A DNA stretch of 64,000 nucleotides from Bugula neritina (Eukaryota; Bryozoa; Gymnolaemata; Cheilostomatida; Bugulidae), in the NCBI GenBank assembly GCA_964035545.1, contig OZ037766.1, positions 30,489,274 through 30,553,273 on the forward strand, written 5' to 3'. The stretch's first letter is position 1, and every line of letters begins with the position of its first letter. This document shows positions 17,396-61,220 of the stretch, piece by piece. Under the pieces are notes generated by a model that was not told the origin of the DNA, ran no database searches, and saw only the letters and a program-made list of their open reading frames with translations. The translations under genes and the position numbers were made by a program.

Positions 17396-17418
17396 GGATT
17401 AAACACGATAAACTTAAA

Positions 17419-19275: not shown

Positions 19276-22200
19276 ATGGCGGGAAATATGTATTACAAAC
19301 TAAAAGACTCTCTGAATAATTTGGAAAAGTTTAAAGCCATCTTGACTTCTGTGAAAGAATCTGAGAGACTAGCTTTACTCAAGCAGCAGGATAATTGGGG
19401 AGACGCCATATTAATGCTCGCTGCTAAGGGTGAACATTTGGATATTGTGAAATGTATTCTAGACTTGGTACCAGCAGCTGATTTACAGGAGCTACTCGTT
19501 GTACAGAATAGAAGAGGAAATACAGTATTTCATGATGCACGACTTGCTGTGAAGGAGTATATGTTAAAGTCTGTTATACCAGCAGCTAAGTTACACTCTC
19601 TACTTGCTATACAGAATAGAGAAGGAAACACAGCTCTACACCAGTTAGCATCATCGAACATTAATATAAGGTTGTTGACATACATAGTAGAATCTGTGTC
19701 AGCAACTGACTTATACAATCTATTTAGTCTACAAAACAAAGATGGTCAAACTGTTATCCACAGTTTAGCTTCTCCCTCTTGCAAAGACATAATGAAATGC
19801 ATTACAGAAACTGTACCTGTAACTGAGTTGTACAGACTGCTCTCCATACAGGACACAGATGGGAGAACAGCAGTTCATTGGGCAGCAGATCATGGTTATA
19901 CAGAGATGATGCATTGTATGGTACAGTCTCTTCCAGCTCCTGACTTACAGAAACTACTTATTATACAAAACAATAATGGACAGACAGCTATGCACATGGC
20001 GTCTAGAAGGGGCCATACAGAAACTCTAAAAGTTATGGCAGATGTTTTGCCAACCACTGATTCATTACACATCTTTGTTGAAAAGGATGCGCATACAGGC
20101 AATACAGTTGCACATGAAGCAGCTTGTGAAGGGCATACAAAGGCCATGCAGCTTATAATAAAGTCAATACCAGCAAAAAAACCGATAGAATTTTTGGTTT
20201 TGCCCAACAAAAAAGGCAACACAGCTTTACACATGGCTACAGAAAGAGGTCATAGTGAAACAGTGAAATGTATATTAGACTCTGTAGCATCATCTGAATT
20301 AAACAAGCTGCTCCTCATACAAACAGAGAATGGCAGAACAGCTTTACACTGTGCAGCAACAAATTGCCAGCTCGATACAATAAAATATATTGTTGATGCT
20401 GTACCAGCAGCTGATTTATACAAGCTAATCAGTGTACAGGATAAATCTGGTAAAACAGTGCTTCACTTGGCAGCACACAGAGGTGATTTAGAGTCCGTAC
20501 CAAAGATTAACATATACAAACATTTCAGTGTACAGGAAAATTCTGGTCAAACAGTGGCAGCATACAAAGGTTTTTTAGAAATAGCGAAATTCATTATTGA
20601 GTCTGTACCAGCATCGGATTTGATTAAAGTTCTTAGCATACAAGATAATGATGGTGATAGTTTCACACACTTGAGAGTTTGTCGTAGTACGGAAATATTA
20701 GAATACCTAGCCGGAGTTTTACCAGAAAGCAGTTTATACAATCTATTCAGCATCCAAAACAAAGCTGGTGGCACAACAATACATAAAATATTAGCTGAAA
20801 GACAAGTGCAAGCATTCAAGTCCATAAAAAGATGTTTACCCAAAGTTCAGTTCTATCAACTGCTGATGTTAAAAAACAGCGAGGGTAACACATCTCTTCA
20901 TGCAGCTGTTTCTATGGGGAATACAAATGTAACTGAGTTGGTACAGCTGCTCATAGATTCTGTTCCTGCTGACAAAGCATTTGATCTACTAAGTGTCCAA
21001 AATGAATTTGGCAGTACTGCTTTCCACTGCTGCAGCACAAAAGAAAACTTTACTAAACTAATAAACTTCATGATAGACAGAATACCAGAAACTGGCTGGC
21101 CAGAAATACTTTTTACTCAAAATGCCAACCAGGATACAGTGTTTCATCATGCAGTCTGTCAGAAATATACAGAAACAACACAACTTATTCTGAGTTCTGT
21201 ACCATCAGCTGACTTAATTAAACTCCTTATCACACAAAACAATTTTGGAAATACACTGCTGCATTGTGCAGTCTGTAGCAGTCAATCAGATACTGTGAAG
21301 CATATTCTAAGTCTAGTACCAGCAGACGAACTGTTCCACCTAGTGAGCATACAGAATAAAAATGGGGATACAACAGTGCACCAAGCAGTTGCAAGGTACA
21401 ACATGAACGCAGCTAACCTTCTTATAGGCTGCCTCTCAGCTGCTAACTATATGAAATTACTTTTAATACAGAATTCTCAGGATAACACTATTGCACACCT
21501 TGCAGTAAATTGTAGGGACACTCTTCAAAATAACTCTTTACATGAAAAACTTATATTTTGGAAGACTATAACAAGAACTGTTGCACAAAGTGCCATGCTC
21601 CAAATGAGTGGTAAAAAAGACCGCTATGGTAAAACATTTCTTCACCATGCAGCAGAAGCAGGTGATGCAAAAATATTTAAACATGTCATTAGTCTAACCC
21701 AAAAAACTGACTTGTACAGTATATTTAGCCTACAAGATCAAGAAGGTAACACAGCTATACACCGCGCTACATCTTTGGGCCTCACCGACATAGTGAAATG
21801 TGTAGTAGACTCTGTTCCACCAGCTGATTTGTGGAAGCTGCTTAAAATTAAAAATCAGCAAGATAAAACAACTCTGCATAGTTCAGTCGCCAGCAATAAT
21901 ATGGAAACATTGCAATGTCTAGTGGACTCTGTTGAAGCAACTGACTTGTACACACTGCTCCTCACGCAGGATATATATGGTGACACAGCTGTTCATTCTG
22001 CTGCACATAGAGGACATGTGGACATGTTAAAGTATCTGTTGGATAAGCTATCACCAGAGCAATGTCTAGAAATACTCAACACCAAAAATCTCAAACAATT
22101 TTGTCCACTAAAAACAGCCAAGTCCAACAAACAGTATAAAGCTTCAAATTGCCTTGCTGAATACAGAAGAAATGCAGAAGATTATGTTGAAAGTAGGTAT

Positions 22201-24887
22201 AAGCTATGACTGCTGGCGACACCATTTGATTTATATTTATACTTGTACTTAACTCATGAGCGTAAAAACAATTGTCAGTATAGAGATGTTTCAGAAACTT
22301 ACAAAGTGGTTTTTAGCTATAATGACCACACTTAATTAGTATGTCAGTAGTGAATTTTCGATCTGGAAAACCACATTTTTTCACATTTGGTGTTTTCTAT
22401 TTAGCTAAGTCATTTTAACATAAAAAAAACTCACACAAGTTTATAGTCATTATCCCTGTGAGAAACCCCTGATAGAAAGGGTTTTTGTTAAAGCGGGCTA
22501 AGGACTTATTTAAATGAGGCACATGAGCAATTATGACTGGATGCTCTTCCTAACATCACCAATGGCCTTTGTCAGGGCTTGAACCCATGACCTTCGTGTT
22601 TACTAGGCAAACGATCTAACCCCTAGACCAAGTCATTTTAACATAAACATACACATATTATTTTGCTCCCAAGAAATTGTTTGCATTTCAAATCTACTGT
22701 TTAAATGTTGGGTGATATATTATTACTGTCTAATATTTCTCTCTTACAGCACAGGCATATTCATTTTATAGACTCCAGTCAAATGAGTGCCACTCTGAAA
22801 GATAGTCTGAAGTACCTGGATGAGAGAAACAGAGATGTAGATATCATGCCACTTCCTGTCAAACCCTGTACTCTGCAATCTGTGACAGAGAAATTCTATT
22901 CTAACAGTGTAAGGATATTACTTTATTTGTATACAATCATTACATTTGAAACCCAGTAGTATGTAGTAACATATGTATATGACTCAACTGTGTTTGTTGG
23001 ATTAACAGAGAAAGAAATGTTAGGTTTAAAGGTGAAAATAGCCCATATTTAGTTTTGCTACAAATATAAGCATCTCTTCATTTCTAACCTTTTCTAGCTC
23101 TTTAAATACTAACTATATTAACTTATTTACCAACATTCTGTTTGAGATCTCTGAGAACACAAGATCTGCAAGAGTCTTTAGGCAGCAATTAATACTTTGA
23201 ACATGCTTGTGTTGTAGGTGTACAGAATGTCAGCACCTGTGAGAGGAAGATGTCTGATTATCAACAACAGGTACTTTGACAGACCTGCCACTCCAGCTCC
23301 TGGTCAGGTTCAGCTAGAACACAGAGATGGATCTGAAAATGATGTGATGAACATCTGGAATGTGTTTCATCAACTAGGCTTTGACTGTGACCTAAGAACT
23401 AACCTTACTAGCAAGGTAAATTGTTGAGAGTGAGAACCCATTTTTTCTGAGTATTTATAAAACATGAAGAGAATATTTTGCATGATTGCCTTGTTATTGA
23501 ATGATTTGCATAGCAAATTACAGTAGCATAATAAATTTATTGATAGCTGAATCCAGCCTGATTATTTTTAAGTTTAATGGAAAAATTTAAATCCTTTATT
23601 GGATTTATAGTCGATGTATATTTATCTTCTATAATTATAGAACTAAAAAAATTCTCTTTTTCTCAATTAAGCAAATGCTAGAAGACATAGAGAGAGAAAC
23701 ACAACATCCTGACTATAAAGTACTCGGAGTCAGTGTATTAGTCATCATGACTCATGGGGCAGAAACTGAAGTCTACGGTAAAGATGGCTGCCCAGTAAAA
23801 CTGACAGACATCTATGATTTGATATCTCCTTACAGATTCCAGTCAATGGCCGGAAAACCCAAAATTGTTATCTTCCAATCATGTGCTGGTCGTGAGTCAC
23901 TTCCTCTTTTGTTTAGATGGCTCTAACATGGAGTTGTTTAGTAAGATACAAACTTTAAAAATGCACAAAAGTGGTTTCTTATACTCTTTTTGGTCACTTT
24001 TGTGAGCTTTTTCTTCAAGATGTATTAAATTTCATGATATTAGCAAAAACTACCTCATTATTAACCATTGGAATTTGACCTAAAACGTCAAATGAAAGAC
24101 TTACAGTAAGATTAACTTTTCTTATTGACATTACATTTGAATGGCTGTTGTAGACAAGGCAGATGATATGGGATTTTATACAACAGATAGCAAAACTAAA
24201 GTAGATGTCAAAGCAGAACCTCCATTTCCAGGAGACCAACCAGCTTCTGATGATTTGTTTATCTTGAGAGCCAGCTTTCTGGGTCAGTCATATACAATCA
24301 AACCTTCTATGTTGTTTCAGAAAAGAGTATCATTTTTAAATACACATATGCAGCATAAATCTCTTTTTATTAACATTTCTTTAAAAAACTTGTATTTAAG
24401 CTCTAAATATTTGCTTGATTTTAGTCCCATGCATATTATTAGTCTTAGCTAGAGAGCAACTGGAAATTATTCATACATTTCAGGTTACCGTTCAGCGAGA
24501 CATTCCAAGCAAGGCACCTGGTTGATAAGAGCCTTAGTGTATGCTTTGTATACCTATGCATGTGATAAAGATATACAGAGCATATTTGAAGAGGTAATGG
24601 TTTACTCAATAAAAGTTTTGGCTATACACAGAAATTGTGTATTCATGCAAGTTGACACATGCTTGGCTGTAAAATTAATAGTAAACCAATCAACACTTGT
24701 TGACAATGACATTGAGTTAGCTGATGTTGATATGTTTTAGGTCAAAGAGATCGTGAAAGAGAAGAGTCTGCTAGCTTCTAAAAGGGATGCAGACATAGGG
24801 GGACAACAGCCAACATTTGAATGTTTTTCCACAAAGAGAAGACAACTTTTCCTGTTTCCTAAATTTGATCCTCCAGCACCTAAGTAA
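19276..24887 (+). CDS. Ankyrin-repeat/caspase fusion protein, copy 1
   Basis: Exons 19276-22192, 22772-22908, 23218-23415, 23672-23891, 24154-24282, 24484-24593, 24741-24887 (TAA), about 1,285 residues. Exon 1 encodes about 24 ankyrin-type repeats of about 39 residues (pattern LLSIQN-KxGxTAxHxAA). Exons 2-7 encode a full caspase domain: YRMSAPVRGRCLIINNRYF, the substrate-binding Arg in R-D-G-S-E, catalytic His in VIMTHGAE (about 1112), catalytic Cys in Q-S-C-A-G (about 1155), an Asp-rich linker, and a p10 subunit with GYRSARHSKQGTWLIRAL. All junctions keep frame. Known for the family: cysteine proteases cleaving after Asp in cell death and inflammation. No CARD/DED is visible. Odd: the exon-1 donor is a weak GTAGGT where the other copies have GTGAGT; the residue after QSCAG is His (CAC) instead of Asp. 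A SINE lies in intron 1. Cellular role is inferred. Confidence 0.87.
22425..22629 (-). mobile_element. tRNA-derived SINE in intron 1 of copy 1
   Basis: A roughly 205-bp insertion flanked by an 18-bp direct repeat (AAGTCATTTTAACATAAA at 22407-22424, and again just after the element at about 22630-22647). On the minus strand its head is tRNA-like, with an A-box-like TGGTCTAGGGG and a B-box-like GGTTCAAGCCC. A central GGAAGAGCATCC resembles a conserved body motif of several animal SINE families (from memory, not checked). The other three ANK-caspase copies lack it at this site. Confidence 0.75.
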
Positions 24888-26222: not shown

Positions 26223-26607
26223 ATGGAAAATACCCAAGGATTGTCATATATTATTATGCAAACAGCCAATACACCCTGTTACCAGCATGTGCTAAGGGAG
26301 GCTCCATATAGTCCCCTGAGACTTTTGCTAACAGGAATTCTTACAGGATTATGTTTAAAATTACTAGTGTGCTGTACTGTACTGTACATCATATGCTACT
26401 GTTTTGCCTTTTGTGAATTGAACTTAAATAGCAATAAAACAAATTTGCTTTATATGTTAAGAAAACATTCTCGCACATACTTGTCCCTGTGCCAAGGAAA
26501 GCTTATTATATGGCTTCAATTGTTGCTATCTTATAAATATATATCATAAACAGGTATAATAGGTTGTTGGACTGTACTTGCAGTTAATAACTTAAATAAA
26601 TAGTTAC

Positions 26608-27061
26608 ATGATGGAAGAAAATAAGTATTGCAAACTAAGAGACTCTCTGAATAATTTAGAAAAGCTTAAAACTATTTTAACTTCTGTAAATGAATCTGAT
26701 AGACAAGCTTTAGTCAAGCAGCAGGACAACAGTGAAAACACCATATTAATGCTAGCTGCTGGATGGGAACATTTGGATATTGTGAAATGTATTCTAGACT
26801 TGGTACCAGCAGCTGACTTACAGGAGCTACTTATTGTACAGAATAGAAATGGAAATACAGTATTTCATGATGGAACTAATGCTGTGAAAAAGTATATGTT
26901 GAAGTCTTTACCACCAGCTAAGTTATACTCTCTACTCGCTATACAGAATAAAGAAGGAAATACACTTCAAAATCATTTAAGAATAAAAAAGTGAACAGCT
27001 GATGAAATGCATAGTGAAATCTGTGTCAGCAACTGGTTTATACAACCTAAAAGCCAGTATT
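26608..27061 (+). pseudogene. Truncated ankyrin exon, relic 1
   Basis: Starts MMEENKYCKLRDSLNNLEKL, matching the start of the ANK-caspase copies, and continues for about three ankyrin repeats (128 codons) to a TGA at 26992. The homology goes on in a shifted frame (MKCIVKSVSATGLYNL) to about 27061, where it joins a scar of the SREBP last exon. No caspase exons follow. It is a partial copy left at a duplication junction. Its upstream 380 bp (from about 26223) match the upstream block of the full genes. Expression of a short peptide cannot be excluded, but decay is the simpler reading. Confidence 0.8.
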
Positions 27062-27105
27062 CAGCATAGTAATATGAGTCAACATGCGAAGTCTCTTGTA
27101 GATAG
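27062..27105 (+). pseudogene. Scar of the SREBP last exon, copy 1
   Basis: Aligns to 11466-11509 by eye, sharing GAGTCAACAT-CGAA and GATAGTCTGGGT. In the SREBP frame it has two stops before the shared TAG, so it is dead. The homology continues into SREBP 3' UTR (AACAACTGTAT, TAATATTTGTTAATATCTTA). It shows that the duplicated unit began inside the SREBP gene. Confidence 0.75.
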
Positions 27106-32570: not shown

Positions 32571-34767
32571 TTGGTATACATGATGAAAGCAGTGATAGCT
32601 TTGCACATTTGACAGCGTATGTTAGGCATTCAGCGATATTAGAATATTTAGCCGGAGTTTTACCATAAAATAGTTTATACAGACTACTTAGCGTTCAAAA
32701 TAGTAGAGGTGACACAATAGTTCATGAGATACTAAGAGAAGGTAAAATGCAAGTGCTCAAATCTATAAGAAAATGTGTGACCTCACTCCAGTTCTATCAG
32801 CTGCTCATATTACAAAACAAAGAGGGTAACACATCTTTCCATGTTTCTATGGAGAATAAAAACGAAACTGATTTTGTACAGCTGCTTATAGATTCTGTTC
32901 CTGTTGACAAAGCATTTCATCTACTAAGTGTCCAGAAAAAAGATGGTAATACTGCTTTCCACTGCTGCAGCACAAAAGAGAAATTTACCAAACTACTAAA
33001 ATTCATGACAGACACGATACCAGAGACTGACTGGTCAGAGTTACTTTGTATCCAAAACTCTAATCAGGATACGGTGTTACATCATGCAGTGTCTGAAAAC
33101 TATCTGGAAACTGCAGAACTTATATTAAGCTTTGTACCAGAAGGTAACCTAAACAAACTTCTCATCATACAAAACCAGCAGGGAAATACAGCTTTGCACT
33201 GTGCAGCACGTAAAGGTCAATCAGATACTGTGAAACACATATTAGACCTGGTACCAGTAGATGAACTGTTCAAGCTAATCAGCAAACAGAATAAAGATGG
33301 AGATACAGCTGTGCACCAAGCATTTGAACAGCATGGTGGCATGGACACAGCAAATCTTCTTATAAGTTGCCTCTCCGCTACTGACTTTGTGAACTTACTT
33401 TCAATACAGAATGCAGATGGTGAAACTGTTGTACATTTTGCAACAGGTAAAAATTTCAGAGAGTTCTGGAAATCGTTAACAAAGTCTGCTGCAGCAAGTG
33501 ACTTACTCAGGATAAGTATGAAACAAAGCAAAAGGGGTAAAACATTTCTGCATTATGCAGCAGAAGCAGGTAATGTAGAAATATTTGAAAACGTTACCAG
33601 TTCAGTCCCAAAAACTGACTTGTACAGTATTTTTAGCCTACAGGACCAGGAAGGTGACACAGTTATACACTGCGCTACATCTTTTGACCGCAAAAACATA
33701 CTGCATACTTCATCCTTGAGTTGTACTACCATAGTGAAATGTGTAGTAGAATCTGTTCCGCCCGTTGACTTATGGAAGCTGCTTAGTATTCCAAATCAGC
33801 AAGATCAAACAACTCTACATAATACAGTCATCGATAATAATATGGAAACATTGAAATGCCTAGTGGACTCTGTTAAAGCAACTGACTTGTACACACTGCT
33901 CCTCACACAGGATATATATGGTGACACAGCTGTTCATTCTGCTGCATACAAAGGACATGTGGATATGCTAAAATATCTGTTAAACAAACTATCACAAGAA
34001 CACTGTCTAGAAATACTCAACACCAGAAACCTCAAACAGTTTACTCCACTAATAGCAGCCAAGTCCAACAAACAGTATGAAGCTGCAAATTGCATTGCTG
34101 AATACAAAGGAAAGGTAGAACAATATTTTCAAGGTGAGTAGCAATTCACTATATGAATGCTAGTAAAGCCTTGTGTTTTATATTTAAATTTATGCTTAGA
34201 CTCATCTATAAAACTGGTCGACATAGTCACATAAAGCTTATTTCTGAAATGGGTAAAAATGTTCCTAGAAATGTTCACACTTGATCGGTAGACTGGTAAT
34301 AACTTTTTAATCTTGATAAACAAAATTTTTGCAAGTACATAGATACTTCTATTTAGCTAAGTTGTTCTCACATGCACATGCTTTGCCAGTAAGAACTTGC
34401 TTGCATTACAAACATGCTGTCTAAACATGTTCCATAGTAGACTAATGTATAAAATGTTTTGCTAACAGCACAGACATATTTATTTTATAGGATCCAATCA
34501 AATGAAGGCCAGTCTAAAAGATAGCCTGAAGTACCTGGATGAGAGAAACAGAGATGTAGATATCATTCAACTTCCTGTCAAACCCTGTACTCTGCAATCT
34601 GTAACAGAGAAATTCTATTCTGACAATGTAAGGGAAATATTCTATCTGTATAATAATTATTACATTTGCAGGTATATATAAACCCAGTAGTAAGCAAAGT
34701 GTTTGTTGATTTACAGGTGCCACCAGCCTATATTTAGTTCTGTACTTGCAAATAGCATGCTATAAAG

Positions 34768-34807: not shown

Positions 34808-36608
34808 TTTCCTAACTCTTTATATATACTAACTATCAACTTATTTACCAACATATACTTCTGCTTCAGATCCTTGATGAACACAAGATCTGCAAGATTC
34901 TTTAGGCAGCAATTGATACTTTGAACCTGCAGTGCAATTTTTGTAGGTGTACAGAATGTCAGCACCTGTGAGAGGAAGATGTCTGATTATCAACAACAGG
35001 TACTTTGACAGACCTGCCACTCCAGCTCCTGGTCAGTTTGAATTTCAAGACAGGGATGGCTCTGAGATTGATGTGATAAACATCTTGAATGTGTTTCAAC
35101 AGCTAAGCTTTGACTGTGAACTAAAATCAAATGTCTCTAGCAAGGTAATTTGTTGAAAGTGAAAACCCACTTTTTTCTAGGTAAAAACATAAAGGGAATA
35201 TTTTGCATGATTGGCTTGTTATTGATTGATTTGCATAGCAAATTACAGTAGCATAATAAATTTATTGATCGCTGAATCCAGCCTGATGATTTTTAAGTTG
35301 GATTGAAAAGTTTAAATCCTTTATTGGATTTTTAGTCGATGTATATTTATCTTTTAATTAAAAAACTAAAAAAATTCTCTTTTTCTCAATCAAGCAAATG
35401 CTAGCAGACATAGAGAGAGAAACACAACATCCTGACTATCAAACACTTGGAGTCAGTGTATTAGTCATCATGACTCATGGGGCAGAAAATCAAGTCTATG
35501 GTAAAGATGGCCACCCAGTAAAACTGACAGACATCTATGATTTGATTTCTCCTTACAGATTCAAGTCAATGGCCGGAAAACCTAAAATTGTTATCTTCCA
35601 ATCATGTGCTGGTGGTGAGTCACTTCCTCTTTTGTTTAGATGGCTCTAACTTGGAGTTGTTTAGTAAGATATAAACTTTAAAAATGCACAAAAGTGGTTT
35701 CTTATACTCTTTTTAGTCATTTTTGAGAGCTTTTTCTTTAAGATGTATTAAATTTCATGATATTAGGAAAAGCTACCTCATTACTAACCATTGGAATTTG
35801 ACCTAAAACGTCAAATGAAAGACTTACAGTAAGATTAAATTTTCTTATTGAGATTACATTTGAATGGCTGTTGTAGACAAGGCAGATGACATGGGATTTT
35901 ATACAACAGATAGCAAAACTAAAGTAGAAGTCAAAGCAGAACCTCCATTTCCAGGAGACCAACCAGCTTCTGATGATTTGTTTATCCTAAGAGCCAGCTT
36001 TCTGGGTCAGTCATATACAATCAAACCTTCCATGTTGTTTCAGAAAAGAGTATCATTTTTAAATACACATATGCAGCATAAATCTCTTTTTATTAACAAT
36101 TCTGTAGAAAAACTTGTATTTAAGTTCTAAATATTTGCTTGATTTTAGTCCCATGATTATTAGTCTTAGCTAGAGAGCAACTGGAAATTATTCATACATT
36201 TCAGGTTACCGTTCAGCGAGACATTCCAAGCAAGGCACCTGGTTGATAAGAGCCTTAGTGTATGCTTTGTATACCTATGCAGGTGATAAAGATATACAAA
36301 GCATATTTGAAGAGGTAATAGTTTACTCAATAAAAGTTTTGGCTATACACAGAAATCGTGTATTCATGCAAGTTGACTCATGCTTGAATGTAGAATTAAT
36401 ATTAAACCAATCCCCACTTGTTGACAATGACATTGAGTTAGCTAATGCTGATATGTTTTAGGTCAAGGAGATCGTGAAAGAGAAGAGTCTGCTAGCTTCT
36501 AGAAGGAACATAGACGTAGGGGGACAACAGCCAACATTTGAATGTTTTCCAACAAAGAGAAGACAACTTTTCTTGTACCCTAAATTTGATCCTCCAGCAC
36601 CTAAGTAA

Positions 36609-38356: not shown

Positions 38357-38894
38357 ATGATGGAAGAAAATGAGTATTGCAAACTAAGAGACTCTTTGAA
38401 TAATTTGGAAAAGCGTCAAACCATTTTAATTTCTGTGAAAGAATCTAAGAGACTAGCTGTACTCAAGCAGCAGGACAATAGTGGAAACACCATATTAATG
38501 CTGGCTGCTGAGCGTGAATATTTGGATATTGTGAAATGTATTCTAGACTTGGTACCAGAAGCTGATTTACAGGTCCAGCTACTCATTGTATAGAATAGAA
38601 GAGGAAATACTGTATTTCATGATACAACTGATGCTGTGACGGAGTATATGTTAAAGTCTGTACCACCAGCTAAGTTATACTCTCTACTTGCTATACAGAA
38701 TAATGAAGGACACACAGCTCTACACCATTTAGCATCATCGAACATTAATATAAGTTCATTGCTCTACTCGTTATACAGAATAAAGAAGGAAATACACTTC
38801 AAAATCATTTAGCAATAAAAAAAGTGAACAACTGATGAAATACATAGTGAAATCTGTGTCAGCAACTGGTTTATACAACCTATAAGCCAGTATT
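38357..38894 (+). pseudogene. Truncated ankyrin exon, relic 2
   Basis: Starts MMEENEYCKLRDSLNNLEKR like relic 1. A three-base insertion (GTC) and a CAG-to-TAG change stop the frame at 38591-38593. The ankyrin sequence continues beyond (GNTVFHDTTDAVTEYMLKS) and is then rearranged near 38755-38830, before ending at the SREBP scar. No caspase exons. It carries different lesions from relic 1, so the two decayed independently or copied different source exons. Confidence 0.8.
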
Positions 38895-42221: not shown

Positions 42222-45200
42222 ATGGCAGAAAATATGTATTACAAACTAAAAGACTGTCTGAATAATTTGGAAAAGTTTAAAGCCATCTTGACTTCTGTGA
42301 AAGAATCTGAGAGACTAGCTTTAGTCAAGCAGCAGGACAATAGTGAAAACACCATATTAATGCTTGCTGCTAGATGGGAACATTTGGATATTGTGAAATG
42401 TATTCAAGACTTGGTACCATCAGCTGATTTACAGAAGCTACTCACTGTACAGAATAGCAGCGGGAATACAGCATTTCATGATAGAACTAATGCTGTGAAG
42501 GAGTATATGTTAAAGTCTGTACCACTAGCTGAGTTATACTCTCTACTTGCTATACAGAATAAAGAAGGACACACAGTTCTACACGAATTAACATCATGGG
42601 GAATTAACGTACAGCTGATGACATACATAGTGGAATCTGTGTCAGCCACTGACTTATCCAACCTAATCAGTACACCAAACAAAGATGGTAAAACTGTTAT
42701 CCACAGTTTAGTTTCTCCCTCTTGCGAAGACATAATGAAATGCATTGTAGACGCTATACCAGTAACTGAGTTGTACAGACTGCTCTCCATACAGGACAAA
42801 TATGGGAGAACAGCAGCTCATTGGGCAGCAGATAAAGGGTCTGCAGAGGTGATGCAATGTATGTTGCAGTCTCTTCCAGTTGTTGACTTACAGAAACTAC
42901 TTACTATACAAAACAAAGATGGGCAGACAGCTATGCACAAGGCATCTAGAAGGGGTCATACAGGAACTCTAAAAGTTATGACAGATGTTCTGCCACCCAC
43001 TGATTTATTACACATCTTTAATGAAAAGACAGGCAACACAGTTGCACATGAGGCAGCATTTGAAGGGCATACAAAGGTCATGCAGCTTTTAATAAATTCA
43101 GTACCAGCAAAAAATGTGATTGAATTTTTGGCTTTGCCTAACAAAAAAGGCAACACAGCTTTACACATGGCTACAGAAAGAGGTCGTAGTGAAACAGTGA
43201 AATGTATATTAGATTCTACATCACCTGAATCAAATATGCTGCTTTTTATACAAAGAGAAGATGGAAAAACTGCGTTACACTGTGCAGCAACAAATAACGA
43301 GCCCCATACAGTAAAATATATTGTTGATGCTGTGCCAGCAGCTGATTTATACAAGCTAATCAGTGTACAGGACACATCTGGTGAGACAGCATTTCACAAG
43401 ACAGCAAACAATAGAGATATAAAAACAATAAAATATATGGTAGGGTCTCTTTCACCAGCTGACTTATGCAAAATTCTCAGTGTACAGAACAAATCTGGTC
43501 AAACAGTGCTTCACTTGGCAGCATACAGAGGTGATTTAGAAATAGTGAAATTCATTATTGAGTCTGTACCAGCATCTGATTTGATAAAAGTTCTTAGCAA
43601 ACAAGATAATCATGGTGATAGTATTACACACGTGAGAGCTTATGATTGTAGTACAGAGATATTAGAATACCTAGCAGGAGTTTTACCAGAAAGCAGTTTA
43701 TACAATCTATTCAGCATCCAAAACAAAGCTGGTGAAACAACAATACACAAGGTATTAGCTGAAAGACAAGTGCAAGCATTCAAGTCCATAAAAAGTTGTT
43801 TACCCAAAGTTCATTTCTACCAATTGCTGATATTACAAAACCAAAAGGGTTACACATCTTTGCATGTAGCTGTTTTTGTGAGGAATAGAATTGAAACTGA
43901 GTTAGTAGAGCTGCTCATAGATTCTGTTCCTGCTGACAAAGCATTTCATCTACTAAGTGTTCAAAATGAAGATGGTGATACTGTTTTCCACTGCTGCAGC
44001 ACACAAGAGAAATTTACCAAACTAATAAAGTTCATGATAGACATGACACGAAATACTGACTGGCTAGAGTTACTTTGTATCCAAAATGCCAACCAGGATA
44101 CAGTGCTACACCATGCAGTCTGTCAGAATTATACAGAAGCAATACAACTTATTTCAAGTTCTGTATCAGCGGCTGAACTAAACAAACTTCTCATCATACA
44201 AAACCATCAGGGAGATACACTGTTACACTGTGCAGCAAATAGAGGTCAATCAGATACTGTGAAGCATATTCTGAGTCTGGTACCAGTAGATGAATTGTTC
44301 AAACTAATCAGCATGCAGAATAAAAATGGGGACACAGTTTTACACCTAGCATTTAGAAAGTATGACAACATGGACACAACAAATCTTCTTATAGGCTGCC
44401 TCTCAGCTGCTAACTATGTGAAATTACTTTTAATACAGAATTCTCATGGTGACACTATTGCACACGTTGCAGCAAATTATAGGAAATTGCCTCAGAATAA
44501 TTATTTACCTGATACAGAAAAACTTTCAGATTTTTGGAAGGCTTTAACAAGAACTGTTGCACCAGGTGACATGCTACAAATAAGTGGTAAACAAAACCAC
44601 CAAGGCAAAACATTTCTTCACCATGCAGCAGAAGCAGGTGATGCAGAAATATTTAAATATGTTATTAGTCTAACCCAAAAAACTGACTTATGCAGTACAT
44701 ATAGTCTACAAGATTATGAAGGTAACACATTTTTACACTGCGCTACATCTTTGGGCCTCACTGACATAGTAAAATATGTAGTAGACTCTGTTCCATCAGC
44801 TGACTTGTGGAAGCTGCTTAGAATTCCAAATCAGCAAGATGAAACAACTCTACATAGTTCAGTCGCCAGCAATAATACGGAAACATTGCAATGTCTAGTT
44901 GCTGCTGTTGAAGCAACTGACTTGTACACACTGCTCCTCACACAGGATATAAATGGTAACACAGCTGTTCACTATGCTGCAAATGAAGGCTATTTGGACA
45001 CATTAAAGTCTCTATTAGATAAACTATCACCAGGGCAATGTCTAGAAATACTCAACATAAAAAACCTTAAACAATTTACTCCACTAATAGCGGCCAAGTC
45101 CAACAAACAGTATAAAGCCGCAGGTTGCATTGCTGAATACAAAAGAAAAGCAGAACACCATTTTGAAGGTGAGTTGCAACTCACCATAAATGTTGATGAA

Positions 45201-47955
45201 ACCTTGTGTTTTATATTTAAACATATACATGTTTAAACTTATTTATAAAAAAAAACTAGTCTACATAGATCTATTTCTAAAAATGGGCAAAAACTTTTTA
45301 GCTATGACCACACCTATAATCAGTAAATCAATACTGATTTTGCAATCTATAACTAACAGCACAGTCACATGCATTTTATAGAATCCAGTCAAGTGAGTGC
45401 CAGTTTGAAAGATAGTCTAAAGTACCTGAATGAGAGAAACAGAGATGTAGATATCATTCAACTTCCTGTCAAACCCTGTACTCTGCAATCTGTGACAGAG
45501 AAATTCTATTCTGACAGTGTAAGGCTAATATCTCATCTGTATAACCACTTATTATTACATACATGTACAGGTAAAACCCAGTAGTATGTAGTAACATATG
45601 TATGACTCAGCTGTGTTTGTTGGTTTAACAAAGAAAAAAAGAAATGTTAAGTTTAAAGGTGAAAACAGCCCATATTTAGTTTTGCTGCAAATAACATCTC
45701 TTCATTTCTAACCTTTTTATAGCTCTTTAGCTTTAAATACTAACTAACTTATTTACTAAAATTCTGTTTAAGATTCTTGATGAACACAAGATCTGCAAGA
45801 TTATTCAAGCAGCAATTATTACTTTGAACATGCTTGTGTTGTAGGTGTACAGAATGTCAGCACCTGTGAGAGGAAGATGTCTGATTATCAACAACAGGTA
45901 CTTTGACAAACCTACTACTCCAGCTCCTGGTCAGGTTCAGCTAGAACACAGAGATGGCTCTGAGATTGATGTGATGAACATCTTGAATGTGTTTCAACAG
46001 CTAAGCTTTGACTGTGACCTAAAATCAAATGTCTCTAGCAAGGTAATTTGTTGAGAGTGAGAATAACCCATTTTTTCTAGGTAAAAACATGAAGGGAATA
46101 TTTTGCATGATTGCCTTGTTATTGATTGATTAGCATAGCAAATTATAGTAGCATGATACATTTTCTGATCGCTGAATCCAACCTGATAATTTTTGAATGG
46201 TTGAAAAATTGAAATCTTTTTTGAATTTGTAGTCGGTGTATTTATCTTCTAATTAAATTAATAAAAATGTTCTCTTTTTCTCAATCAAGCAAATGCTAGC
46301 AGACATAGAGAAAGAAACACAACATCCTGACTATGAAACACTCGGAGTCAGTGTATTAGTCATCATGACTCATGGGGCAGAAAATCAAGTCTATGGTAAA
46401 GATGGCCGCCCAGTAAAACTGACAGACATTTATGATTTGATTTCTCCATACAGATTCCAGTCAATGGCCGGGAAACCCAAAATTGTTATCTTCCAATCAT
46501 GTGCTGGTGGTAAGTAACTTCCTTTATTGTTTAGATGGCTCTGATATTGATATTGCGTTATCATAAACAATGACATGGAGCTTTTTAGTATAGGATATAA
46601 ACTTTAAAAATGCGCAAAAGTGGTTTCTATTACTCTTTGTAGCTACTTTTAAGATCTCTTTTTCTAAGATAATATATCAAGTTTCACGGTATTGTATTGG
46701 TATTGGGAGTTGTCATCATTATGTTCTGAAAGCTCTAGAAATAAGCAACTATTTGCATGGTTATTAGAATTAACTCTTGGCATAGCTTTTTGAAGGCCTT
46801 AAATGTTATCATTGTTGAGCTTTTGGCATAGTGAATTGGGTATTTTCTTTGTCTCTATGGAATGTGGGAGTGCCGGAGACTCCTACATTCCTAACACATC
46901 TGGTTTTCTGCAAAAATCCGTGGAATCTTCTGGAAAGAATGTTTTTCAAAGTATATAAGCAGGCGAACTCATAGTGTAGAGTCAGTCTACAGCTGGAGCT
47001 CGCTGTATAAAGACCATTCAGATATATACTACTTTCTAAAATAAAGCTACTCTACGCATTTCAAGACCTTCTTTTCTCTCTGATAAAGACAAAGAGTTAT
47101 GTTTTCCACCTAATTGATCTAAGTCCACCAATTACTAAAATACCATGAAAAGCTAACTCGCTTAATATTGTTCTTTATTACTTAGAATACAGTTGAATTT
47201 CTGTTGTAGACAAAGCAGATGATATGGGATTTTATACATTTGATAGTAAAGTTAAAGTAGAGGTCAAAGCAGAACCTCCATTTCCAGGAGACCAACCAGC
47301 TACCAATGACTTGTTTATTTTGAGAGCCAGTTTTCTGGGTCAGTCAAACAATTAAACCTTCTATGTTGTTTCAGAAAAGAATATTACTTGTAAATACACG
47401 TATGCATTGTAAATCACCTTTTATAAACAATTCTGTAGAAAAAAGTTTATGTAAGACCTAGCTACTTCTAAAAAGTGTTGATTTTAGTCACATATTTATT
47501 TGTCTTAGCTAGAGAGTAACTGGAAATATGCATATATTTCAGGTTACCGTTCAGCGAGACATTCTAAGCAAGGCACTTGGTTGATAAGAGCCTTGGTGTA
47601 TGCTTTGTATACCTATGCATGTGATAAAGATATACAGAGCATATTTGAAGAGGTAATAGTTTACATACAATAGGAGTGTTTGTTACTCACAAGCTACACA
47701 GAAATTGTGTATATAAGTTGACACATGCTTCAATGTAGAATTAATATAGTAAACCAATCAACACTTGTTGACAATGACATTGAGTTAGCTGATGTTGATA
47801 TGTTTTAGGTCAAAGAGATCGTGAAAGAGAAGAGTCTGCTAGCTTCTAGAAGGAACATAGATGTAGGGGGACAACAACCAACATTCGAATGTTTTCCAAC
47901 AAAGAGAAGACAACTTTTCCTGTTTCCTAAATTTGATCCTCCAGCACCTAAATAA
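42222..47955 (+). CDS. Ankyrin-repeat/caspase fusion protein, copy 3
   Basis: Exons 42222-45168, 45382-45518, 45845-46042, 46290-46509, 47210-47338, 47543-47652, 47809-47955 (TAA), about 1,295 residues, open throughout. I count 24 consecutive ankyrin-type repeats, most of exactly 39 residues, in exon 1. The caspase part has RDGSEID, catalytic His about 1122 (VIMTHGAE), catalytic Cys about 1165 (QSCAG), a 43-residue His-Cys spacing close to that of other caspases, a linker with several Asp, and p10 ending PTFECFPTKRRQLFLFPKF. Without splicing, exon 1 would run 22 codons into intron 1 and stop, giving an ankyrin-only protein. Intron 4 holds a private insertion (46861-47111). Gene body is closest to copy 4, but exon 7 and the 3' flank resemble copies 1 and 2. 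A protease role follows from intact catalytic residues; substrate and pathway are unknown. Confidence 0.88.
46861..47111 (+). mobile_element. Possible solo LTR in intron 4 of copy 3
   Basis: About 250 bp absent from the matching intron of copy 4. It has the layout of an LTR: a TG start near 46863, a TATA-like GTATATAAGCAGG (46951), AATAAAG (47038-47044) and a CA end near 47111 (TTTTCCA). I see no clear target duplication, so a different kind of insertion is possible. Confidence 0.4.
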
Positions 47956-50283: not shown

Positions 50284-50493
50284 TGTAATGTGCATGACAT
50301 TGCATCATGCAGTTGTGTAACCGTTTTGTAAATATTATTATAGCTGTTGTGTGGTTTTCCTTTATGTCCTAAATTCCTTCATCTTTGTGGTTTATATAAT
50401 ATATGTTGTCTGTCTTAGAAATGTGTTCATAGTGATTAGTTGTGCTTTCCAAATAAAGATATTTCAGTGAACTTTAAGTATAATACTATTACA
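50284..50493 (+). repeat. 5' LTR of the second retrotransposon (210 bp)
   Basis: Contains a TATA-like TTTATATAATATATG and an AATAAAG (about 50453). Identical by eye to 54344-54553. The gag start codon follows only 31 bp after it. Confidence 0.93.
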
Positions 50494-50524
50494 AGCTATT
50501 TCGGCATTTATCAGTGGTAGAAAT

Positions 50525-54285: not shown

Positions 54286-54343
54286 ACGTTTTTTCTTTTT
54301 GTTTTATTATATATCTGTTTGATCTGATAAGATCAGGGGGAAA

Positions 54344-54553
54344 TGTAATGTGCATGACATTGCATCATGCAGTTGTGTAACCGTTTTGTAAATATTATTA
54401 TAGCTGTTGTGTGGTTTTCCTTTATGTCCTAAATTCCTTCATCTTTGTGGTTTATATAATATATGTTGTCTGTCTTAGAAATGTGTTCATAGTGATTAGT
54501 TGTGCTTTCCAAATAAAGATATTTCAGTGAACTTTAAGTATAATACTATTACA
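54344..54553 (+). repeat. 3' LTR of the second retrotransposon (210 bp)
   Basis: Matches the 5' LTR base for base by eye. It is preceded by the polypurine tract AGGGGGAAA and followed by the target duplication ATGTA. Confidence 0.93.
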
Positions 54554-55819
54554 ATGTAGAAAGACAATACGTAAGAAAGAAAGATTATATGAAAATAGTT
54601 AAGAAATATTTTGACAAAATGGTTAAGAAACCATTTTCTCATAAAATTTTCCTCTGCACTACACAAAGCTGGTAAACCCAGTTACCAGCATGTGCTAAGG
54701 GAGGCTCCACATACTCTCCAGAGACTTTAGCTAACCAGGGTTCTTACTGGATTATGTCTAAAATTATTAGTTTACTGTATTGTAGTTATTGAGTATTTGC
54801 TACAGCCTTGTCTTCTGTGAATTGACCTTAAAAGGCAATCAAACAGATTTGCTTTATATATTCACAAGTGAACTTCTCATACTATAGAAGTACTATATGC
54901 TACTAGGAAACTACTCTCCTGCATAGTGCATCTTACCTAACTGTCACCTCACTTCACAGTAGTTGAGTGGCCTAGTTATACTAACAAATACCTTTAAATT
55001 ACTAAGGGCCCATCACATTGTGATTAGCTCAATAGTCATATGGCAGTACATGAAAGCAGGTTATAATGATGTTACCATCTATAGTTTTCTTGTATATTCA
55101 CATATTGCATTATAACTTTGTTATATACAGGCTCTAAGAGAAAAAGCTATGTAAAGTTTGCAGTTAAAAAGCTGATGTTTTAGGCATATGTTGCTTCTCT
55201 ACAGTTCAGCCTTGTAACATGTTAAATGCTCAATAAAACTTATTCTCATAATACTACAAGTTAATATAGATGCAGGAATTAAGAGGGTTTCAAATAGGAA
55301 ATGTAGCAAAAAAATTCCATGTGTTTTCAGTAAATGTTATGATATAAGAAAATTAAATAAAATCTTACACCATACATGTTTCCTTACTACATGGCTAAAT
55401 GAGTTGGACCATTATCAATACAAAAACAGACATTGATTTGTGATGAAAAATGTATGCATAATTCAATCAACATATGCATCCAAACTTGGTATTACTGAAT
55501 GAATTTTAACATTGTCAGTTAAAAATGTAAAATGTGTACTATAAGCTGCTATAGCTGCTAGCTACTGTCACCAAGCTTGAAATTTCATGCAGCTTATTAT
55601 TTGTGTTTGGTTTGGCTTTTGCTTTTAAAACTCTAGTATTAATTTGTTTTCTATGTAAACAACTTCTCACTAAGTACATCAGAAACTGTCTTCTTTTTGA
55701 TATAGTAACTTTAGCTAAAAATTCAATTTAATGAATGTTTTGCGTATCAATGAAAGTGAGGGTGTGCTACTTGTTATATTATAATAATTGTATTTCAGAA
55801 TTGAGAAACTATTTACAAG
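54554..55819. other. Duplicated spacer, fourth copy, right part; upstream region of copy 4
   Basis: Noncoding. After the target duplication it jumps from the about 12900-type spacer to the about 18090-type spacer, lacking roughly 550 bp that other copies have in between. Contains the recurrent block GTTACCAGCATGTGCTAAGG (54681) and a leader acceptor TTTCAG (55793-55798) before the start codon of copy 4. Confidence 0.6.
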
Positions 55820-58800
55820 ATGGGGGAAAATATGTATTACAAACTAAAAGACTCTCTGAATAATTTGGAAAATTTTAAAGCCATCTTGACTTCTGTGAAA
55901 GAATCTGAGAGACTAACTGTACTCAAGCAGCAGGACAATAGTGAAAACACCATATTAATGCTTGCTGCTAGATGGGAGCATTTGGAGATTGTGAAATGTA
56001 TTCAAGACTTGGTACCAGCAGCTGATTTACAGGAGCTATTCACAGTACAGAATAGCAGAGGGAATACAGCATTTCATGATAGAACTAATGCTGTGAAGGA
56101 GTATATGTTAAAGTCTGTACCACTAGCTGAGTTATACTCTCTACTTGCTATACAGAATAAAGAAGGACACGCAGTTCTACACGAATTAACATCATGGGGA
56201 ATTAACGTACAACTGATGACATACATAGTGGAATCTGTGTCAGCCACTGACTTATCCAACCTAATCAGTATACCAAACAAAGATGGTGAAACTGTTATCC
56301 ACAGTTCAGTTTCTTCTCCCTCTTGCGAAGACATAATGAAATGCATTGTAGACGCTATACCAGTAACTGAGTTGTACAGTCTGCTCTCTATACAGGACAC
56401 AGATGGGAGAACAGCACTTGATTGGGCAGCAGATAAAGGGTCTACAGGGATGATGCAATGTATGTTGCAGTTTCTGCCAGCTCCTGATTTACAGAAATTA
56501 TTCACTATACAAGACAAAGGCGGGCAAACAGCTATGCACAAGGCATCTAGAAGGGGTCATACAGGAACTCTAAAAGTTATGACAGATATTCTGCCACCCA
56601 CTGATTTATTACACATCTTTAATGAAAAGACAGGCAACACAGTTGCACATGAGGCAGCATTTGAAGGGCATACAAAGGTCATGCAGCTTTTAATAAATTC
56701 AGTACCAGCAAAAAATGTGATTGAATTTTTGGCTTTGCCTAACAAAAAAGGCAACACAGCTTTACACATGGCTACAGAAAGAGGTCATAGTGAAACAGTG
56801 AAATGTATATTAGATTCTACATCACCTGAATCAAATATGCTGCTTTTTATACAAAGAGAAGATGGAAAAACTGCTTTACACTGTGCAGCAACAAAGAAAG
56901 AGCCCCATACAGTAAAATATATTGTTGATGCTGTACCAGCAGCTGATTTACACAAACTAATCGGTGTACAGGACAAATCTGGTGAGACAGCATTTCACAA
57001 GACAGCAAACAATCGAGATATAAAAGCAATAAAATATATGGTAGGGTCTCTTTCATTAGCTGACTTATGCAAAATTCTCAGTGTACAGAACAAATCTGGT
57101 CAAACAGTGCTTCACTTGGCAGCATACAGAAGTGACTTGGGAATAGTGAAATTCATTGTTGAGTCTGTACCAGCATCTGACTTGATAAAAGTTCTTAGCA
57201 AACAAGATAATCACGGTGATAGTATCACACATGTGAGAGCTAATAATTGTAGTACAGAGATATTAGAATACCTAGCAGGAGTTTTACCAAAAAGAAGTTC
57301 ATACAAACTACTCAGCATCAAAAACAAAGCTGGTGACACAACAGTGCATAAAGTATTAGCTGAGGGAAAAGTGCAAGCATTCAAGTCCATAAAAAGTTGT
57401 TTACCCAAAGTTCAGTTCTACCAATTACTGATATTACAAAACAAAAAGGGTTACACATCTTTGCATGTAGCTGTTTCTATGGGGAATAAAAATGAAACTG
57501 AGTTAGTACAGCTGCTCATAGATTCTGTTCCTGCTGACAAAGCATTTCATCTACTAAGTCTTCAAAATAAATATGGCAGTACTGCTTTCCACTGCTGCAG
57601 CACAAAAGAAAACTTTACTACCCTAATAAAGTTCATGATAGACATGATACCAGAGACCGACTGGTCAGAGTTACTTTGTATACAAAACTTTCATCAGGAT
57701 ACTGTGTTACATCATGCAGTGTGCCGAAGCTTTGCAGAAACAACACAACTTATTCTGAGTTCTGTACCAGCAGCTGAAATAATTAAACTCCTCATCACAC
57801 AAGACACGAATGGAAATACACCATTGCATTGTGCAGTCTGTAGAAGTCAATCAGATACTGTGAAGCAAATTCTGAGTCTGGTACCAGAAGATAAATTGTT
57901 CAATCTAATCAGCATACAGAATAAAGATGGGGATACAACTGTGCACCAAGCAGTTGGAAAGTACAACAACATGAAAACGACAAACCTTCTTATAGGCTGC
58001 CTCTCAGCTGCTAACTATGTGAAATTACTTTTAATACAGAATTCTCATGGTGACACTATTGCACACGTTGCAGCAAATTATAGAAAATTGCCTCAGAATA
58101 ATTATTTACCTGATACAGGAAAACTTTCAGATTTTTGGAAGGCTTTAACAAGAACTGTCGCACCAGGTGACATGCTACAAATAAGTGGTAAACAAAACCA
58201 CCAAGGCAAAACATTTCTTCACCATGCAGCAGAAGCAGGTGATGCAGAAATATTTAAGTATATTATTAGTCTAACCCAAAAAGCTGACCTATGCAGTACA
58301 TATAGCCTACAAGACCAGGAAGGTAACACATTTATGCAGTGTGCAACATCTTTGGGCCACACTGACATAGTGAAATATGTAGTAGACTCTGTTCCATCAG
58401 CTGACTTGTGGAAGCTGCTTAGAATTCCAAATCAGCAAGATGAAACAACTCTACATAGTTCAGTCGCCAGCAATAATACGGAAACATTGCAATGTCTAGT
58501 TTCTGCTGTTGAAGCAACTGACTTGTACACACTGCTCCTCACACAGGATATAAATGGTAACACAGCTGTTCACTATGCTGCAAATGAAGGCTATTTTGAC
58601 ACATTAAAGTCTCTATTAGATAAACTATCACCAGAGCAATGTCTAGAAATACTCAACATAAAAAACCTTAAACAATTTACTCCACTAATAGCGGCCAAGT
58701 CCAACAAACAGTATAAAGCCGCAGGTTGCATTGCTGAATACAAAAGAAAAGCAGAACACCATTTTGAAGGTGAGTTGCAACTCACCATAAATGCTGGTGA

Positions 58801-61220
58801 AACCTTGTGTTTTATATTTAAACATATACATGTTTAAACTTATTTATAAAAAAACTAGTCTACATAGACCTATTTCTAAAAATGGGCAAAAAATTTTTAG
58901 CTATGACCACACCTAATCAGTAAATCAATACTGATTTTGCAATCTATAACTAACAGCACAGTCACATGCATTTTATAGGATCCAGTCAAGTGAGTGCCAG
59001 TTTGAAAGATAGTCTAAAGTACCTGAATGAGAGAAACAGAGATGTAGATATCATTCAACTTCCTGTCAAACCCTGTACTCTGCAATCTGTGACAGAGAAA
59101 TTCTATTCTGACAGTGTAAGGCTAATATCTCATCTGTATAACCATTATTATTACATACATGTACAGGTAAAACCCAGTAGCAAGTAAAATATGTATGACT
59201 CACCTGTGTTTGTTGGTTTAACAAAGAAAGAAATGTTAGGTTTAAAGGTGAAAACAGCCCATGTTTAGTTTTGCTGCAAATAGCATCTTTTCATTTTTAA
59301 CCTTTTCTAGCTCTTTAGCTTTAAATACTAACCATTAACTTATTTACCAGCATTCTGTTTTAAATTCTTGATGAACACAAGATCTGCAAGGTTATGTATA
59401 TGTAGGCAGCAATTAATACTTTGAACATGCGTTGTAGGTGTACAGAATGTCAGCACCTGTGAGAGGAAGATGTCTGATTATCAACAACAGGTACTTTGAC
59501 AGACCGGCCACTCCAGCTCCTGGTCAGGTTCAGCTAGAACACAGAGATGGCTCTGAGATTGATGTGATGAACATCTTGAATGTGTTTCAACAGCTAAGCT
59601 TTGACTGTGAACTAAAATCAAATGTCTCTAGCAAGGTAATTTGTTGAGAGTGAGAACCCATTTTTTCTAGGTAAAAACATAAAGGGAATATTTTGCATGA
59701 TTGGCTTGTTGTTGATTGATTAGCATAGCAAATTATAATAGCATGATTGATTTTCTGATCGCTGAATCTAGCCTAATAGTTTTTGACTGATTGAAAAATT
59801 GAAATCTTTTTTGAATTTGTAGTCGGTGTATTTATCTTTTAAATAAATTAATAAAAATGTTCTCTTTTTCTCAATCAAGCAAATGCTAGAAGACATAGAG
59901 AAAGAAACACGACATCCTGATTATGAAACACTCGGAGTCAGTGTATTAGTCATCATGACTCATGGGGCAGAAAATCAAGTCTACGGTAAAGATGGCCGTC
60001 CAGTAAAACTGACAGACATCTATGATTTGATATCTCCTTACAGATTCCAGTCAATGGCCGGAAAACCCAAAATTGTTATCTTCCAATCATGTGCTGGTGG
60101 TGAGTCACTTCCTCCTTTGTTTAGATGGCTCTAATATTGATAGTATAGTATAGGATATAAACTTTAAAAATGCGCAAAAGTGGTTTCTATTACTATTTGT
60201 AGCCACTTTTAAGATCTCTTTTTCTAAGATAATATATCAAGTTTCACGGTATTGTATTGGTACTGGGAGTTGTCATTACTATGTTCTGAAAGATCTGGAA
60301 ATAAGCAACTATTTGCATCATTATTAGAATTGAATCTTGGAACAGCTTTTCGAAGGCCTTAAAAGTTATTGTTGAGCTCTTGGCGTAGTGGATTGGGTAT
60401 TTTTTTGTCTCTATAGAAAAAATAATGCACAAACCTTAAGGTTGTCCTTTATTATCTAGAATACAGTTGAATGCCTGTTGTAGACAAGGCAGATGATATG
60501 GGATTTTATACATTTGATAGTAAAGTTAAAGTAGAGGTCAAAGCAGAACCTCCATTTCCAGGAGACCAGCCAGCTTCTGATGACTTGTTTATCTTGAGAG
60601 CCAGCTTTCTGGGTCAGTCAAAATATCGAGCCTTCTATGTTGTTTCAGAAAAGAATATTACTTGTAAATACATGTACATACATTGTAAATCACTTTTTAT
60701 AAACAATTCTGTAGGAAAATTTCTATGTAAGACCTAGCTATTTCTAAAAAGTGTTGATTTTAGTCACATATTTATTTGTCTTAGCTAGAGAGTAACTGGA
60801 AATATGCATATATTTCAGGTTACCGTTCAGCAAGACATTCCAAGCAAGGCACCTGGTTGATAAGAGCCTTAGTGTATGCTTTGTATACCTATGCCTGTGA
60901 TAAAGATATACAGAGCATATTTGAAGAGGTAATAGTTTACATACAATAAGAGCATTGGTTATTCACAAACTACACAGAAATTGTGTATATAAGTTGACAC
61001 ATGCTTGACTGTAAAATTAATAGTAAACCAATCAACACTTGTTGACAATGATATCGAGTTAGCTGATGTTGATATGTTTTAGGTCAAGGAAATTGTGAAG
61101 GAAAAGAGTCTGCTAGCTTCTAGAAGGAACATAGACGTAGGGGGACAACAGCCAACATTCGAATGCTTTCCAACAAAGAGAAGACAACTTTTTCTGTATC
61201 CTAAATTTGACCCCCCATAG
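55820..61220 (+). CDS. Ankyrin-repeat/caspase fusion protein, copy 4
   Basis: Exons 55820-58769, 58979-59115, 59438-59635, 59880-60099, 60484-60612, 60819-60928, 61083-61220 (TAG), about 1,293 residues, open throughout. About 24 ankyrin-type repeats of 39 residues in exon 1, then a caspase with RDGSEID, His about 1123, Cys about 1166 in QSCAG, and p10 GYRSARHSKQGTWLIRAL. Exon 1 and introns 1-6 are closest to copy 3. The C-terminus differs: extra bases near 61211-61218 create a TAG, so it ends after ...KFDPP and lacks the final A-P-K of the other copies. Start context MGENMYYKLKDSL matches the other copies. It is the last full unit of the array; its 3' flank is more diverged than those of copies 1-3. 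Function inferred as in copy 3. Confidence 0.88.

Follow-up and report, generated by a model that had tools for sequence, protein, structure and literature searches.

A tandem family of predicted ankyrin-caspase genes in the bryozoan Bugula neritina and its CARD-bearing relatives

Background

Initiator caspases are normally directed by adaptors that dock on a CARD or DED. A 64,000-nucleotide stretch of the genome of the bryozoan Bugula neritina (here called the window; C2:30489274-30553273, on the second-largest scaffold) raises the question of what may direct a caspase that carries an array of ankyrin repeats. Within the window, four tandem genes on the plus strand (positions 19276-61220) are each predicted to encode such a protein, with the array first and a complete caspase after it. 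An earlier reading of the same DNA (the original prediction) had described these genes as ankyrin/caspase fusions in which the array replaces the adaptor-binding prodomain. The analysis presented here concerns whether the two parts belong to one polypeptide, how the array came to precede the caspase, and what it may do there.

Architecture of the tandem genes

Each of the four genes consists of seven exons (Table 1): exon 1 (2.9-3.5 kb) encodes an N-terminal cap and the ankyrin array, exon 2 (137 nt in all four) a linker, and exons 3-7 the complete caspase. All introns are GT-AG, their phases (1-0-0-1-1-0) are identical across the four genes, and exons 2-6 have the same lengths in each. The six short exons originally described downstream of the array can be assigned as one linker and five caspase exons, with every junction in phase. 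The bounds given for the feature are exact, since 19276 is the ATG of gene 1 and 61220 the stop of gene 4. The description of all four genes as full-length holds for genes 1, 3, and 4, whose open reading frames are intact (1285, 1295, and 1293 residues); it does not hold for gene 2, in which the ankyrin exon is interrupted by a stop codon (see below).

For the gene 1 junction between array and linker, a candidate at 22196/22755 was in frame in gene 1 only and broke genes 2-4. It was replaced by 22192/22772, the junction of the original prediction, whose homologous site fits all four genes.

Domains, repeats, and catalytic residues

Exon 1 of gene 1 matches Pfam Ank_2 (E 3e-76), and the spliced linker plus caspase matches Peptidase_C14 over positions 1-230 of the 233-position profile (gene 1, E 1.1e-40; gene 3, E 1.1e-37). 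Pfam gave no match to a CARD, DED, or death domain in the linker and caspase of genes 1 and 3 or in the N-terminal cap and linker of gene 1, a hidden death fold not having been sought by structure. By sequence, the solved structures closest to the caspase part are CED-3, followed by the construct JF1cpCasp2, caspase-3, and caspase-7.

The canonical ankyrin repeat has 33 residues. The Bugula unit is longer, about 39 residues, with the majority sequence KDGNTALHLAAEKGHTETVKCIVDSVPAADLYKLLSIQN. A hidden Markov model (HMM) of this repeat matches genes 1, 3, and 4 at 23 places each, of which one is partial. Gene 2, halved by its stop, has 17 plus 12 matches, of which some are partial. The single long ankyrin exon per gene is as first described; the number of repeats, first given as 24-29, is 23 to about 28 in the window arrays. 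An AlphaFold2 model of the gene 3 array, built from a 4-sequence alignment (mean predicted local distance difference test score 83.9, predicted template modeling score 0.58), has mostly three helices per repeat. Its fold neighbors are ankyrins: AnkB (4rlv), ankyrin-1 (8cs9), MIB1, TRPA1, FEM1, and RNase L.

As originally noted, the catalytic His (THG) and Cys (QSCAG) align in all four window genes. Across the 16 ankyrin-caspase loci described below, a query-anchored alignment finds the His, two pocket Arg, and the Gln preceding the Cys motif in every case, and both His and Cys in 15 of 16; these counts score residues, not intact frames. The Arg/Gln/Arg set forms the Asp pocket.

Elsewhere in the genome, L050 (C4:4996000-5003000) is a single-exon caspase homolog of 345 residues with FDASFG at the catalytic Cys motif. 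Among the candidates scored it is the best Peptidase_C14 match in the genome, and perhaps it is a FLIP-like pseudo-caspase.

The family across the genome

A genome search with the gene 1 array and with Peptidase_C14 yielded 12 further loci that were read (Table 1), making 16 in all. In each of the 12, ankyrin frames are followed by caspase exons on the same strand. The array frame, measured from stop to stop, spans 436-722 residues in nine of them; it is shorter in L057 (287) and L056 (294) and is split over two frames in L055. At six loci tested for splice sites, in-phase GT/AG signals for the 1-0-0-1-1-0 pattern stand at nearly all expected positions, and four of these have clear phase-1 splice sites at both ends of the intron that separates array from linker (the donor of L042 is weak). 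An exon-by-exon search located the linker in 15 of the 16 loci, weakly in L058 and L059 (23 and 20 bits). Family members form tandem clusters on C2 and C9, with further C9 caspase exons near 9.333, 9.341, and 9.352 Mb, and on other scaffolds the same order is kept even where the array shares no more than about 32-41% identity with that of gene 1.

A separate gene model adds to this picture. P0003 (EB796_009497), an annotated B. neritina protein, joins ankyrin repeats to the start of a caspase at the same exon 1/exon 2 junction and is truncated within the p20 domain. It comes from the 2020 draft assigned to B. neritina, whose genes were called by AUGUSTUS with hints from a published transcriptome (PMC7576161). 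Given the same order at 12 other loci and the P0003 junction, the architecture is not due to chance; the gene models, together with P0003, predict that the array, a putative recognition module, and the caspase are encoded in one polypeptide.

Caspases in general are numerous in this genome: at least 176 exon-level Peptidase_C14 matches were found when 150 of 295 candidates were scored. Caspase exons of other subtypes have expanded greatly as well, in clusters on C1, C6, and C7. At C8:12.34, C2:12.84, C1:13.64, C3:6.7, and C3:4.48-4.51 Mb lie frames that share the cap and the 39-residue repeats of the family and have no caspase in the stretch read. On C3 about eight long ankyrin frames of this repeat type form a tandem cluster (C3:4479330-4508734, minus strand), adjoined by a caspase exon at C3:4512121-4512348.

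Searches beyond Bugula compared proteins through shared 5-residue words. With the caspase region, proteins of about 707-2249 residues gave one match, from Owenia, which lacks ankyrin domains; with the caspase alone, proteins of about 172-548 residues gave three, including P0003 itself, and the range of about 548-707 residues was not covered with the caspase. With the ankyrin region, Peptidase_C14 occurred in none of the best 120 of 244 matches (7988 candidates sharing the most words were scored). Among the matches listed in a search of the open-licence literature, no description of ankyrin-caspases or of bryozoan caspases was found.

Apparent origin from a CARD-caspase

In a maximum-likelihood tree of 27 sequences, the ankyrin members lie on one side of a split with support of 97.9 by the Shimodaira-Hasegawa-like approximate likelihood-ratio test and 89 by ultrafast bootstrap; an earlier tree gave the same split with support of 87. 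Their nearest relatives are three genes on C6 (L052-L054), which stand beside that clade (split 81.1/77) and lack a long ankyrin frame over the stretch read. One rival arrangement was tried, in which the C6 group joined all ankyrin genes except that on C5, and it was rejected by the approximately unbiased test (p=0.011). At exon edges, the rows of the alignments and trees include a few residues translated from introns; the P0003 row, which contained spurious matches in the earlier tree, was trimmed for the 27-sequence tree.

The linker connects these lineages. That of L053, DSDLSDSLEYLDENQENLDRISL, matches both the linkers of the ankyrin genes and that of P0002, a caspase of the bryozoan Watersipora that carries a Pfam CARD ahead of the same linker (P0002 was aligned with nine linkers from ankyrin genes or P0003). 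The exon-by-exon search did not find the linker in L052 and L054. Upstream of L053, exons resembling the P0002 CARD are present on the minus strand at C6:253495-253638 (E 3e-9), 252935-253027 (2e-4), and 249780-249875 (0.002). Thus, L053 has CARD exons with the same linker and caspase, and the ankyrin form has no Pfam CARD or DED, which supports the earlier proposal that the array replaces an adaptor-binding prodomain. Apparently, the CARD exons ahead of the conserved linker gave way, once, to an ankyrin array encoded in a single exon, and after this swap the ankyrin-caspase multiplied, again apparently, to at least 16 loci. The simplest history would be that one caspase-free exon of cap and repeats replaced the CARD a single time and that duplication followed.

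Selection on the array and the protease

The two halves of the window genes evolve differently. Among the four genes, omega (the ratio of nonsynonymous to synonymous change) is 0.06-0.40 for caspase exons 3-7 and 0.51-0.71 for the ankyrin exon; exon 2, which is too short for this purpose, gives 0.29-1.06, with one pair undefined. Array and caspase also differ in how large a share of the changes alter an amino acid, in the four gene pairs compared of the possible six, one of them with gene 2 (Fisher p 3e-7, 0.004, 8e-6, and 0.01). To judge from these sequences, the caspase is strongly constrained and the array is evolving more loosely.

Within the array, five columns that match design positions of designed ankyrin repeat proteins (DARPins) are presumed to form the binding face. 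These face columns vary in 48 of 91 codons, versus 188 of 720 elsewhere in the array (p 5e-7, a descriptive value because the columns were picked after viewing the per-column table). Their omega is 2.25, 0.92, and 0.60 in three pairs, versus 0.47-0.53 elsewhere. Faster change in the array fits activation by ligand or by clustering and an immune or self/non-self role, without proving either.

Proposed function and alternatives

The reading favored here, and held to be somewhat probable, is that the intact members of the family encode adaptor-free sensor-proteases, that is, initiator caspases with an array in place of the CARD, which would serve cell death in defense or in self/non-self control. 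The array would bind a ligand, perhaps a molecule from a microbe or symbiont, part of a virus, or a host protein that is altered or non-self; ligand-bound copies would be brought together, and the caspase domains, activated by proximity, would dimerize and cleave. Binding by the array would thereby trigger the protease, and the outcome would be cell death in defense or in control of the colony.

Several observations weigh against this proposal. Five of the 16 copies have a visible defect, which means that some of the family is inactive or in decay. Gene 2 has its in-frame TAA at 32666-32668 (codon 692); L044 (C9:9319000-9324500) has QADHRG at the Cys motif, lacking the catalytic Cys while keeping the His and the pocket, and is a possible decoy; L051 has a stop in the p20 exon; the p20 exon of L058 is broken between two frames; and the array of L055 lies in two frames. 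The remaining 11 are free of defects in the parts read, with the last exon of L041 lying beyond the stretch (match at C5:351783-351899) and the linker of L040 not found by the exon-by-exon search. P0003 and the end of the gene 3 array share 85% identity, so P0003 is a related copy, not gene 3 itself. The variability of the face is suggestive only, given the post hoc choice of columns, and exposed positions vary more in any protein; an array omega of 0.5-0.7 is also expected under relaxed constraint. Finally, no ankyrin-caspase outside Bugula appeared in the limited word-based searches, although absence is not thereby shown.

The strongest rival is a developmental executioner, in which the array would be an anchor or a substrate-docking scaffold that positions the caspase at some structure of the cell, for the breakdown of larval tissue or the regression of the polypide, with no recognition of foreign ligands. 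This is a serious but unlikely alternative. Bugula degrades larval tissues at metamorphosis (PMC2890537); the fold neighbors of the array model include the scaffold ankyrins AnkB and ankyrin-1; and the array is under net purifying selection. However, the diverging arrays of 16 paralogs and the tandem clustering on C2 and C9 resemble a recognition repertoire more than a single anchor, and the face positions of the array change fastest. It is less probable still, and on the whole doubtful, that most copies are regulators or decoys, ankyrin proteins that soak up ligands or caspases while the protease is secondary or inactive. The missing Cys of L044, the broken frames of gene 2, L051, and L058, and the caspase-free frames of cap and 39-residue repeats found elsewhere would suit such a role, but the majority of copies are defect-free in the parts read, His and Cys are retained in all but one, and the caspase exons are the most constrained part of the window genes.

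The two remaining alternatives concern the genes themselves. One is that an ankyrin gene and an adjacent caspase gene have been wrongly joined by the gene model. In its favor, exon 2 contains an internal Met in genes 1 and 2; in genes 3 and 4, however, Val stands there. The linker was located in five of the six outside loci tested, and in four of the six the phase-1 splice sites between it and the array are clear. P0003 has its array and caspase joined at the exon 1/exon 2 junction too, and the CARD sister L053 uses the same linker. Given also the 16 loci and the matching intron phases, two separate genes are very improbable. That the cluster is recently duplicated and mostly dead is hardly to be believed. 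LTR (long terminal repeat) elements whose terminal repeats are identical occur next to the cluster and inside it, and ankyrin fragments and a premature stop are present, but three of the four copies are intact, their caspase exons are under the constraint described above, and loci with quite divergent arrays keep the order on other scaffolds.

Relation to known systems

The sensor-protease that is proposed here can be compared with several known proteins. The bryozoan CARD-caspases (Watersipora P0002 and Bugula L053) share its linker motif and belong to neighboring caspase lineages, and they differ in having CARD exons where the ankyrin exon stands. RNase L joins an ankyrin sensor array, with far fewer repeats, to an effector enzyme activated by ligand-driven dimerization. 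It resembles the Bugula proteins in the order of array and enzyme, and it is among the fold neighbors of the array model; no kinship beyond the ankyrin fold is claimed. Its effector is a kinase-like/RNase pair, whereas that of Bugula is a Peptidase_C14.

The nearest known kind is found in the LRRs-caspase (leucine-rich repeat) and TNFR-caspase hybrids of amphioxus, so the joining of a recognition module to a caspase is already in print (PMC2575513). There, a recognition or receptor module stands with a caspase in one protein as a result of lineage-specific domain shuffling, and the authors suggest that the recognition of pathogens is coupled directly to apoptosis; the module is LRR or TNFR, the TNFR form being predicted to be transmembrane (PMC2575513). 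The Bugula family, in contrast, has an ankyrin array built of 39-residue units (transmembrane segments were not searched for), retains a CARD relative, and numbers 16 copies or more. In fungi, protease sensors whose genes cluster with those of gasdermins carry ANK, WD40, or TPR repeats and likewise fuse a protease to superstructure-forming repeats in regulated cell death (PMC12881547). These are mostly serine proteases, some being CHAT caspase-like, and are unlike the animal Peptidase_C14 with its p20 and p10.

Surroundings of the genes

The features of the window genes and the positions of the further loci are listed in Table 1. Two pieces of the 5' part of the ankyrin exon, detected by blastn, lie between genes. 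Between the first of these and gene 2 is a long tandem run of a TGTGCATG-type unit (about 28750-28911). An LTR retroelement at 50283-54554 (plus strand), between genes 3 and 4, has gag-like and pol frames and two identical terminal repeats of 212 nt, which suggests that the insertion is young. A second element (12988-17557, minus strand), just upstream of gene 1, has identical repeats of 121 nt and a single frame of 1357 residues with reverse transcriptase, RNase H, and integrase. Further upstream, frames at about 5519-5896 and 8804-10111 (plus strand) have no convincing Pfam match; one of them is taken to resemble the start of an SREBP-type basic helix-loop-helix protein.

Table 1. Features of the four ankyrin-caspase genes (positions in the window) and positions of the further loci (scaffold, Mb)
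Feature	Position	Strand	Basis or remark
Gene 1 exon 1, cap and ankyrin array	19276..22192	+	23 HMM matches, one partial
Gene 1 exon 2, linker	22772..22908	+	gene model; conserved linker
Gene 1 exon 3, caspase p20 start	23218..23415	+	gene model
Gene 1 exon 4, catalytic His (THG) and Cys (QSCAG)	23672..23891	+	gene model, alignment
Gene 1 exon 5, p20/p10 interdomain linker	24154..24282	+	gene model
Gene 1 exon 6, p10	24484..24593	+	gene model
Gene 1 exon 7, p10 end and stop	24741..24887	+	gene model
Ankyrin-exon 5' fragment	26611..27050	+	blastn 82-86% to 5' ends of genes 1-4; ends approximate
Gene 2 exon 1, ankyrin array with in-frame TAA	30593..34133	+	gene model, repeat HMM
Gene 2 premature stop	32666..32668	+	
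Gene 2 exon 2, linker	34491..34627	+	gene model
Gene 2 exon 3	34947..35144	+	gene model
Gene 2 exon 4, catalytic His and Cys	35395..35614	+	gene model, alignment
Gene 2 exon 5	35877..36005	+	gene model
Gene 2 exon 6	36205..36314	+	gene model
Gene 2 exon 7 and stop	36462..36608	+	gene model
Ankyrin-exon 5' fragment	38360..38883	+	blastn 87-88% first part, 75-81% rest; ends approximate
Gene 3 exon 1, ankyrin array	42222..45168	+	23 HMM matches, one partial
Gene 3 exon 2, linker	45382..45518	+	gene model
Gene 3 exon 3	45845..46042	+	gene model
Gene 3 exon 4, catalytic His and Cys	46290..46509	+	gene model, alignment
Gene 3 exon 5	47210..47338	+	gene model
Gene 3 exon 6	47543..47652	+	gene model
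Gene 3 exon 7 and stop	47809..47955	+	gene model
Gene 4 exon 1, ankyrin array	55820..58769	+	23 HMM matches, one partial
Gene 4 exon 2, linker	58979..59115	+	gene model
Gene 4 exon 3	59438..59635	+	gene model
Gene 4 exon 4, catalytic His and Cys	59880..60099	+	gene model, alignment
Gene 4 exon 5	60484..60612	+	gene model
Gene 4 exon 6	60819..60928	+	gene model
Gene 4 exon 7 and stop (TAG)	61083..61220	+	gene model
Further loci L039-L044, L051, L055-L059	C2:32.92, C2:31.06, C5:0.35, C6:3.45, C7:5.54, seven on C9 9.32-9.41		

Implications

Since the CARD dock appears to have been swapped for a potential binding array, and a CARD relative with the same linker has been kept, the effect of the swap on activation is directly testable. 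The window copies differ mainly in the array and thus offer a tractable test of whether recognition has moved into the death protease. Bugula forms colonies and can harbor a symbiont that makes bryostatin (PMC11480708); with this habit and this symbiont, allorecognition and the policing of symbionts are both concrete hypotheses. A bolder proposal, advanced tentatively and thought unlikely as a whole, is that the family forms a repertoire of adaptor-free "single-protein inflammasomes": about a dozen intact caspases, each with a variable array that would recognize a signal of its own, whether non-self, symbiont, or colony-type, and set off the protease directly. If this is true, the diversity of recognition would sit in the executioner itself, and not in upstream receptors.

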